Shown one piece after another: positions 45,953 through 47,719 of a stretch of 64,000 bases of DNA; the first letter of the stretch is position 1; each line of letters starts with the position of its first letter. Location: the NCBI RefSeq assembly GCF_003058225.1, contig NZ_QBUG01000002.1, positions 682,001-746,000 of the forward strand, in the 5' to 3' direction. Position numbers and translations under genes: made by a program. This DNA comes from Promicromonospora sp. AC04 (lineage in GTDB: Bacteria > Actinomycetota > Actinomycetes > Actinomycetales > Cellulomonadaceae). Below the pieces are notes generated by a model, which saw only the letters and a program-made list of their open reading frames with translations, was not told the origin of the DNA and made no database searches.

Positions 45953-45999
45953 GGCTGACGGCGCGACTTCTCGGGTGGCTACCCGTCGCGCCGTCGGCC
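45953..45999. terminator. 15-bp hairpin after pckG
   Basis: Arms 45953-45967 and 45985-45999 (GGCTGACGGCGCGAC / GTCGCGCCGTCGGCC), one mismatch, begins 9 bases past the pckG stop. Confidence 0.7.
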
Positions 46000-46013
46000 G
46001 TCCGGACAAGCGT

Positions 46014-46047
46014 CCCCGGCCGGGTTATTGAGGCATCCCGGCCGGGG
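46014..46047. terminator. 11-bp perfect inverted repeat between pckG and trpS
   Basis: CCCCGGCCGGG (46014-46024) and CCCGGCCGGGG (46037-46047) with a 12-base loop containing TTATTGAGG. Second of three stacked dyads. Confidence 0.6.
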
Positions 46048-46055
46048 ATCTCCCT

Positions 46056-46077
46056 TGTCCACAGGGCCCTGTGGACA
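46056..46077. terminator. 22-bp perfect palindrome near trpS 3' end
   Basis: TGTCCACAGGG followed directly by CCCTGTGGACA. With no loop, it may be a protein site rather than a terminator. It lies 17 bases from the trpS stop. Confidence 0.55.
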
Positions 46078-46093
46078 GGGCCTCGCCCAGGTT

Positions 46094-47227
46094 TCAGTAC
46101 CGCATCCCCATCAGCCCGCGGACGTCGTCCAGGGTGCGGTCCGCTATCTCGTTCGCTCGCGCGTTGCCCCGGGCGAGCACCTCGTCGAGGTGACGCGGTC
46201 CGGCGGAGGCGAGCTCCCGGCGTCGGGTACGGAGGGGTCGTAGGCCCTCCACCACTGCCTCGGTGACCACCGCCTTGAGCCGCCCGGCGCCCGCCGAGCC
46301 AATCTCCTCGGCCAGCGCCTCCGGCGACATCTTGGTGAAGTATGCGCCGATCTGGAGCAGGTTCGCGATCTCGGGCCGCCGCTCCGGCTCGAAGGTGATC
46401 ACGCGCTCGGCGTCGGTCTTCGCCCGTCTGAAGAACGCGACGGTGTCGTCGTCGGAGGCGCGGAGCTCCAGCGCGTTCCCCCGGGACTTGGACATCCTGC
46501 GGCCGTCGTCGCCGAGGACGGTGGTCGACGGCGCGATGAGAGCGTCGGGCTCCGGGAAGTACGGCCGGGCAGCCGCGTACCGCTGGTTGAACCGGCGGGC
46601 CACGGTACGGGTGATCTCGAGGTGCGGCAGCTGGTCCACTCCGACGGGCACGAGGTTGCCGTGGCAGAACAGGATGTCGGCGGCCTGGTGCACCGGGTAG
46701 GTGAGGAGCAGGCCGGAGATGCCGCGCTTCTGGCGCAGCAGGGCTGCTTCCGCCTCGGCCTTCACCGTGGGGTTGCGCTCCAGCTCGGCGACCGTGACCA
46801 GCGACAGGAACGGCAGCAGCAGCTGGTTCAGGGCGGGCACCGCCGAGTGCGTGAAGACGGTGCTGCGCTCGGGGTCGAGCCCCGCCGCGAGATAGTCGAG
46901 CAGCACCTCGCGGACGGTCGCGGGCAGGTCGCCGGCGTCGTCCCGGTCGGTGATGACCTGGTAGTCGGCGACGATGAGGAACATCTCGACGCCCAGGTCC
47001 TGCAGGCGCACGCGGTTCGCGACGGTCCCGAGCAGGTGACCCAGGTGCAGGGCGCCCGTGGGGCGGTCCCCGGTCAGGACGCGGTACTCCCCCGGGTTGC
47101 GGGCGATCTGGCCCTCCAGGACGGCGGTGCGCTCGCGCGCCGCGGCGGCGGAGCGGGTGATGCCGCCCGGCTCACGCGGTGTGGCCGACGGCGGCGTGGT
47201 CGCCTCGGGCGGTGTGGTGACGGACAT
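46094..47227 (-). CDS. trpS: Tryptophanyl-tRNA synthetase, auxiliary (TrpRS II-like) type
   Basis: Charges tRNA-Trp. 377 aa. Class I signatures: TGALHLGHLLGT (HIGH motif, ~residue 60) and GRRMSKSRGNAL (KMSKS). The stretch VLTGDRPTGALHLGH...NRVRLQD and the C-terminal RTRRRELA...GNARANEIADRTLDDVRGLM resemble Deinococcus TrpRS II and the indolmycin-resistant auxiliary TrpRS1 of Streptomyces rather than the standard enzyme. An N-terminal extension of ~45 polar residues precedes the catalytic core. AAGGAGACCCAAC lies before the ATG. A Trp-codon leader peptide and terminator hairpin upstream indicate attenuation control by Trp-tRNA charging. Confidence 0.93.
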   Translation of the reverse strand: MSVTTPPEATTPPSATPREPGGITRSAAAARERTAVLEGQIARNPGEYRVLTGDRPTGALHLGHLLGTVANRVRLQDLGVEMFLIVADYQVITDRDDAGDLPATVREVLLDYLAAGLDPERSTVFTHSAVPALNQLLLPFLSLVTVAELERNPTVKAEAEAALLRQKRGISGLLLTYPVHQAADILFCHGNLVPVGVDQLPHLEITRTVARRFNQRYAAARPYFPEPDALIAPSTTVLGDDGRRMSKSRGNALELRASDDDTVAFFRRAKTDAERVITFEPERRPEIANLLQIGAYFTKMSPEALAEEIGSAGAGRLKAVVTEAVVEGLRPLRTRRRELASAGPRHLDEVLARGNARANEIADRTLDDVRGLMGMRY

Positions 47228-47271
47228 GTTGGGTCTCCTTGTTCAGGGAGCCGCCCGCGCACGACGTCGGG

Positions 47272-47316
47272 CACAGAAAAGTCCCGGGCTGCGGCGAGCA
47301 GCTCGGGACTTCTGTG
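47272..47316 (-). terminator. Attenuator terminator hairpin in the trpS leader
   Basis: On the reverse strand the arm at 47316-47298 (CACAGAAGTCCCG.GCTGC) pairs with 47292-47272, and the 3' side runs into CTTTTCTGT, a U-rich tail. It lies between the leader peptide stop and the trpS RBS. Confidence 0.8.
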
Positions 47317-47333
47317 CGGGTGGGCGCGTCAGG

Positions 47334-47378
47334 TCACGGCTGCGGGTGCAGCCGCCACCAGTTCAGCCCGTGCGTCAT
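47334..47378 (-). CDS. trpS leader peptide with tandem Trp codons
   Basis: Fourteen-codon ORF, product MTHGLNWWRLHPQP, with adjacent TGG TGG codons at positions 7-8. The following codons form a hairpin (GGCTGC/GCAGCC) just after the Trp codons. A ribosome stalled at WW would mask this and favour an alternative pairing that prevents the terminator at 47272-47316. No Shine-Dalgarno; a good promoter places the transcription start at its ATG, so it is probably translated leaderlessly. Confidence 0.82.
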   Translation of the reverse strand: MTHGLNWWRLHPQP

Positions 47379-47384
47379 GGGCCC

Positions 47385-47413
47385 AGGGTAGGCGGGCGCC
47401 CGACGCCGGGCAA
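47385..47413 (-). promoter_or_regulatory. Promoter of trpS leader transcript
   Basis: Reverse strand TTGCCC (47413-47408), 17-base spacer, TACCCT (47390-47385). The expected start point, 7 bases beyond, is the A of the leader peptide ATG. Confidence 0.65.
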
Positions 47414-47430: not shown

Positions 47431-47462
47431 GTTCTACCTCGGCCTGGCGCTATCTCGGCTCG
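47431..47462. repeat. Two 16-bp units of the CTAYCTCG repeat family
   Basis: Units 47431-47446 (GTTCTACCTCGGCCTG) and 47447-47462 (GCGCTATCTCGGCTCG). The TAG stop of the small membrane protein gene (47450-47452) is read from the second unit. Same 16-base period as 5903-5950. Confidence 0.7.
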
Positions 47463-47719
47463 GCCCGAGCCTGGTGCCGCGCTCGGCGCTGGCCCCACGC
47501 CGCCAGAAAGAGCACCGGCCCGAGGACAGGGACTCCGACGATGACAACAAGCACCAGGAGTCCCTCCCACAACCTGTCCCACCTGGTTCTGAACCAGACA
47601 GCTAGCGCCGTGACCATCAGCGCGAGCACCACGACCACGACGCCGAGCCAGGCAACGTCGTACTGGGGCCCCAGGAACAGGTAGATCCCAGCGGGCTCGG
47701 TCGAATCCGTACCTACCAT
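47450..47719 (-). CDS. Small two-helix membrane protein, PLDc_N-like
   Basis: 89 aa. Two hydrophobic helices: WLGVVVVVLALMVTALAVWF and LLVLVVIVGVPVLGPVLFLAAW, then a basic tail. The second helix with VPVLGPVLF resembles the PLDc_N domain found alone or ahead of cardiolipin synthases, a weak similarity. Function unknown. Its stop lies in a CTAYCTCG repeat unit. It is divergent from trmL. Confidence 0.72.
   Translation of the reverse strand: MVGTDSTEPAGIYLFLGPQYDVAWLGVVVVVLALMVTALAVWFRTRWDRLWEGLLVLVVIVGVPVLGPVLFLAAWGQRRARHQARAEPR

Follow-up and report, generated by a model that had tools for sequence, protein, structure and literature searches.

A predicted tryptophan attenuator with a covarying long-range helix upstream of an auxiliary trpS in Promicromonospora

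What governs a second tryptophanyl-tRNA synthetase (TrpRS) in a genome that already carries one? The question is raised by a 64,000-nucleotide stretch of the 6.85-Mb Promicromonospora sp. AC04 genome (hereafter the window), whose minus strand holds an auxiliary trpS gene behind a short open reading frame (ORF) with tandem Trp codons. We propose that a ribosome-mediated attenuator induces this spare TrpRS when charged tRNA-Trp is short and that a second, translational gate is added to it, a reading to which we give a probability of roughly 80%. The first layer is very likely a classical ribosome-mediated attenuator of a known kind. The added gate would probably act on translation at the trpS Shine-Dalgarno (SD) sequence, through a long-range helix. 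A preliminary description of this DNA had proposed charging-controlled attenuation of an auxiliary TrpRS. Comparison with relatives supports both its attenuator anatomy and its TrpRS II-like enzyme, and supplies what it had overlooked: helix 3:6, whose two sides covary, and the masking of the SD.

The window trpS (46094..47227, minus strand) encodes an auxiliary, TrpRS II-type synthetase of 377 amino acids that matches PF00579 and scores above the cut-off of TIGR00233 (2.5e-66). Its suspected likeness to Deinococcus TrpRS II is borne out, in that Deinococcus TrpRS II chains are its closest solved relatives (PDB 1yi8, 2.6e-59). The source genome holds not one trpS but two, 34–35% identical to each other, the window gene being the divergent copy beside what looks like the housekeeping one. 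The best solved match of that other copy is a 7el8 chain (436 bits), and our script found no Trp-Trp leader upstream of it. Tolerance of TrpRS inhibitors such as indolmycin, raised in the preliminary description, would be a speculative property of this enzyme. Two differences near the Trp pocket, at positions we take to be inhibitor contacts, separate the copies: R in the window copy for Q in the other (GDRPT/GMQPT, by alignment), and Q for H (ADYQVIT/VDLHALT, anchored by eye). A role with a nitric oxide (NO) synthase, as in Deinococcus, was rejected: PF02898 had no match in this genome (2 of 14 control genomes match), and nothing therefore points to nitration of the Deinococcus kind.

Upstream of trpS lies a promoter (47385..47413, minus) with a −35 box TTGCCC (47413-47408), a 17-nt spacer and a −10 box TACCCT (47390-47385). 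Six nucleotides separate the −10 box from the ATG of the leader ORF, whose A (47378) is the predicted +1 of the transcript. The ORF, MTHGLNWWRLHPQP (47334..47378, minus), carries tandem codons for the regulating amino acid, Trp. Both the promoter and a leader ORF at the predicted 5' end had been described before; both are present, and the peptide recurs in relatives. Taking one candidate leader from each locus and merging regions that were identical left 75 distinct leaders. In 73 of them a TAnnnT box ends 6–7 nt upstream of the leader start, compared with 0.8% of mononucleotide shuffles, a count in which the script favoured the start having a box among starts sharing one stop. The two box-less leaders (L066, L124) resemble chance ORFs. 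Because the box is so placed in 73 of 75, leaderless translation is, on this geometry, predicted to be the rule among these Trp leaders and no peculiarity of the window. The preliminary description had singled it out as notable; the S. lividans trpL2 leader before trpS is also reported as leaderless in the part of PMC8079986 available to us (Table 4).

The whole leader folds far better than shuffles (z −5.6) and offers three mutually exclusive helices. Hairpin 1:2 (47332..47359, minus; −22.5 kcal/mol, z −5.2) joins arm 1, CGGCTGC (47354-47348), right after the Trp codons, to arm 2, GCAGCCG (47343-47337), which reaches the stop codon. Antiterminator 2:3 (47298..47343, minus; −18.5 kcal/mol, z −2.6, equalled by 3 of 200 shuffles) is built from the pairs GCAGC:GCUGC, CG:CG, GAC:GUC, CUG:CAG and GCG:CGC. 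Terminator hairpin 3:4 (47271..47317, minus; −33.7 kcal/mol, z −6.7) is followed by a U-rich stretch (TTTTCTG from 47280). The short hairpin after the Trp codons and the terminator with its U-rich tail are therefore as first described. Consensus scans listed neither attenuator site (promoter-like sites, 0; terminator-like, 1, elsewhere), probably because the hexamers match the E. coli consensus poorly and the terminator stem has a mismatch.

These alternatives extend beyond the window. Across 70 loci that differ in their arm sequences, the 2:3 and 3:4 arms share 4 nt or more in 29 (shuffles, 14%), as counted by a crude helix finder that misses the two-part stems of most leaders of the type ending in QP or QS. 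Among 34 relatives of that type, 91.5% of the counted 2:3 cells are paired; both 2:3 and 3:4 are nearly invariant there, and a covariation signal is absent from them.

Does the leader go with the possession of a spare synthetase? Counting repeats and the source genome itself, our searches covered 59 close genomes, 296 from the phylum and 198 from the order, which amount to 514 distinct genomes. This type of trpS occurred with a second trpS in 47 genomes, of which 46 were examined (G418 lies at a contig edge), giving 47 loci since one genome has two copies. A second trpS was not found in 87 genomes with this type; the 50 with fetched stretches were examined. The phylum and order searches scored only part of their first-look candidates, the latter at E 1e-30, so a weak second trpS such as that of G047 would be missed. 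By script, a short Trp-Trp ORF precedes trpS in 41 of the 47 two-trpS loci versus 3 of the 50 one-trpS genomes (Fisher p 2.6e-17, with species that are not independent), and the three latter hits, all of which stop 284 nt or more upstream, appear to be chance occurrences. The total rises to 46 of 47 with L141, which the script overlooked, and with four leaders that have a single Trp and were chosen by eye (L023, L027, L169, L171). The exception is G047 itself, counted as two-trpS on a weak second match (2.7e-25); G381 and G487 belong to the same genus.

The leaderless Trp leader thus accompanies a spare TrpRS in several actinobacterial families, and for that reason should predict which copy is inducible. 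The same contrast is seen within families. In family f12, G507 has two trpS genes and the leader, and none of the ten one-trpS members examined carries a leader nearby; in family f1, G020 has one trpS and no leader was found. A TAnnnT box stands 6–8 nt before an in-frame trpS start in 22 of 50 one-trpS genomes versus 1 of 47 two-trpS loci, and the sole trpS of such genomes may, by this spacing, be translated leaderless. The genome with two auxiliary-type copies (G036; loci L012 and L166) has a Trp-Trp leader before each, MALRRDWWRLHPQP and MTLRRSWWRLPSQP, and also a third, more distant trpS.

A further helix connects the terminator to the stretch next to the trpS ribosome-binding site. The 5' arm and loop of the terminator, GAGCTGCTCGC (47294..47304, minus), are complementary to a segment just upstream of the trpS SD, GCGGGCGGCTC (47248..47258, minus; hereafter element 6), giving helix 3:6, in which GAGCUGCUCGC (47304-47294) pairs with GCGGGCGGCUC (47258-47248). 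Element 6 overlaps an anti-SD motif, CTCC (47250-47247). This pairing could be a by-product, for instance if element 6 were a copy of arm 4 and the classical transcription attenuator acted alone. The classical parts by themselves account for Trp control, and element 6 does resemble arm 4, because both are complementary to arm 3. We looked at how the two sides of 3:6 change among relatives, and at whether each arm and loop fits its own partner.

We aligned 34 of the 36 leaders whose peptide ends in QP or QS (L061 and L067 were excluded). In this alignment 88.9% of 3:6 cells pair, 15 cells have changed on both sides compared with 3.9 (sd 1.8) in shuffles, and the covariation score is 0.222 compared with 0.124 (sd 0.012). 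For paired cells, both-side changes and covariation alike, the observed value was matched by 0 of 500 shuffles, and slid versions of the helix score at most 0.087. On the other side, the number of pairs with a double change, 3, hardly differs from the 2.1 of shuffles and is reached by 155 of 500; in addition, 10 of the 34 leaders lack the A80:U175 pair. Because kinship alone can lift related sequences above shuffles, we mapped the changes on the TrpRS tree (midpoint root, unit costs). For terminator-loop columns 86–89 the tree implies 33 changes, of which 25 arrive at a standard pair (in columns 86–88, 22 of 26). Pair 86:169 went from C-G to G-C in the Cellulosimicrobium group and to U-A in L018, 89:166 from C-G to U-A in L053, and 88:167 is U-A in Oerskovia, inferred to have passed through a C.C mismatch. 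In two cases a double change leaves the position without a pair (80:175 in L050; 89:166 in L019 and L144).

A further test needed no alignment. The arm and loop find a partner just upstream of the SD at p ≤0.05 in 46 of 68 testable loci, where about 3 are expected; of the 32 loci that are not of the QP/QS type, 20 reach this level. Among the 22 loci above p 0.05 are two from the same genus as the window, L004 and L008, each with a single mismatched position, and two from Nonomuraea, L065 and L104. When partners were exchanged among 51 representatives, own partners scored 22.8 and exchanged ones 17.65 (sd 0.52), a difference reached by 0 of 5000 permutations. The halves taken separately, 26 representatives of the QP/QS type and the 25 others, each gave 0 of 5000 again. 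The control regions were null (trpS coding start, 1987 of 3000; promoter, 885 of 3000); the leader ORF was positive (0 of 3000), as expected from 2:3. Helix 3:6 itself is well supported by these comparisons. Two of the results speak directly against a by-product: loop columns 86–89, which are unpaired in 3:4 and lie outside the counted 2:3 pairs, covary with element 6, and the exchange test is positive also outside the QP/QS type, where sequences differ.

Over the 34 loci the 3:6 duplex has a median energy of −21 kcal/mol. The inner 3:4 helix has −6.4, and the local SD hairpin, which 3:6 would displace, has −5.2; on these modelled energies, with the cost of a pseudoknot uncounted, a pseudoknot of the outer 3:4 stem and 3:6 is conceivable. 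The alternatives 4:6 and 2:6, inspected by eye in a few species, are mismatched in most of these.

The SD is also masked to an unusual degree. In the predicted fold of the window, CTCC pairs with the SD AAGGAG (47235..47240, minus), which has a probability of being unpaired of 0.07. The median for the SD core is 0.14 in 70 leader-bearing loci, compared with 0.44 for 62 control genes from the fetched loci and 0.32 for shuffles, with automatic start codons that were available in 70 of 73 loci and are probably wrong in some (L021, L173). In the one-trpS genomes the median is 0.45 (34 of 50 with an SD-like motif), and masking is not seen. No covariation was seen in the SD hairpin, and shuffled sequence folds as well as the short local stretch around the window's SD (z 0.6). 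Nested folding led us to reject a simple translational switch: masking is the same with or without a free arm 4 (medians 0.10 and 0.14, p 0.21, 36 loci). This independence of SD access from the state of the leader is what a by-product would give, and taken with the covariation above it leaves us regarding a by-product as somewhat unlikely.

The two-gate reading can be set out as an order of events. The first nucleotide of the leader AUG would be the transcription start. As long as tRNA-Trp is charged, the ribosome would reach the stop codon and cover arm 2, and arms 3 and 4 would form the terminator. A ribosome halted at the Trp codons would have a footprint reaching to about leader base 33–36; stalled at UGG-UGG, it would cover arm 1 (bases 25–31) and leave arm 2 (bases 36–42) largely free, arms 2 and 3 would form the antiterminator, and polymerase would enter trpS. 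As 3:4 is much stronger than 2:3, the antiterminator would have to act by forming first. Arm 3 is held by arm 2 during the stall, so 3:6 would act on completed transcripts; and since 2:3 blocks arm 3 from element 6, the two gates need a temporal order.

Once a transcript is complete, element 6 could take arm 3 and the terminator loop as its partners, perhaps in a pseudoknot that retains the outer terminator stem. Free of arm 3, element 6 could mask the SD, and it is because it would do so unless held by arm 3 that we propose a second, translational gate. Helix 3:6 would open the SD, and transcripts leaking past a formed terminator would, in the order we infer, stay masked, the second gate keeping leaky read-through silent. 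The fullest form of this model, in which arm 3 serves three ways, pairing with arm 2 for antitermination, with arm 4 for termination and, through a loop pseudoknot, with element 6 for SD unmasking, is a tentative and rather doubtful one. If true, one RNA segment would gate both transcription and translation of a spare synthetase, and a class of double-gated attenuators would exist in many Actinobacteria with duplicated trpS. Covarying 3:6 in any case offers a defined element for asking whether classical attenuators also control translation.

The termination step bears on a further alternative, in which control is mainly translational or Rho-dependent, and not by intrinsic termination, in the relatives without a U-tract and partly in the window too. 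The masked SD would suit such control. Of the 23 aligned loci from other genera, 20 carry no more than 3 U among the 8 nt that follow the stem, counted by eye, and PMC8079986, in the part available, reports S. lividans trpL2 without a U-rich stretch. With the U-rich tail so often missing outside Promicromonospora, the mode of termination may differ there. Against this stand the strong terminator hairpin, the 5–7 U within 8 nt of the stem in 11 of 11 same-genus loci, and the UUU(U) of the Nonomuraea loci L065 and L104; we think the alternative unlikely. E. coli ThrRS represses itself by binding near its own SD, and the conserved long-range helix near the SD of a synthetase gene might suggest that TrpRS does the same by binding that structure, which we consider highly improbable given that a tRNA-Trp-like loop was not recognised by eye and that the loop sequence varies among species.

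How does the two-gate reading relate to described systems? Vecchione and Sello reportedly described in 2010 a Streptomyces auxiliary, antibiotic-resistant trpRS gene under ribosome-mediated transcriptional attenuation, and Lopatovskaya (2010) and Korolev (2015) may already include actinobacterial trpS attenuators. The Streptomyces system of 2010, known to us by its title, resembles ours in the auxiliary TrpRS gene and the ribosome-mediated attenuation; ours differs in its lineage and in the covarying 3:6 and masked SD found here. S. lividans trpL2-trpS likewise has a leaderless Trp leader peptide ahead of trpS, but with a single Trp (MMTRTCTQLWRAA), and the available part of PMC8079986 neither reports a U-rich stretch nor mentions 3:6. 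For S. avermitilis trpS2, a classical attenuator ahead of trpS is likewise predicted (PMC1262725), in one genome and, in the part of that paper available, with no mention of an SD element for trpS.

The LEU element of actinobacterial leuA, in the same part of PMC1262725, also combines a leader peptide, a candidate pseudoknot and SD pairing. In that element the partner of the SD is the run of codons, and a biosynthesis gene lies downstream; here, in contrast, the gene encodes a synthetase, and the terminator arm and loop find their partner upstream of its SD. Helix 3:6 goes unmentioned in the available parts of PMC1262725, PMC8079986, PMC9437257, PMC6804068, PMC4833913 and PMC4787780. The attenuator is thus of a known type, and the conserved extra pairing beside the trpS ribosome-binding site is the added feature.

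Some observations concern neighbouring sequence. Leaders of the Oerskovia type (L016, L040, L042; L040 was folded) have an extra hairpin, GCCCTC...GAGGGC, between terminator and SD, which could compete for element 6. Upstream of the window promoter, on the same strand, a small ORF (47450-47719, minus) encodes a hydrophobic product of 89 amino acids without a Pfam match above cut-off and stops 36 nt before the −35 box; any transcripts coming from it would give the Trp leader a 5' UTR and cost it the leaderless start. An Rfam search of a 2-kb stretch returned 12 matches up to E 10, none reaching its own family's gathering score. At 45990-46090, where two Streptomyces sRNA families match far under their gathering scores, strong inverted repeats lie between the convergent trpS and pckA genes and are perhaps a two-way terminator.
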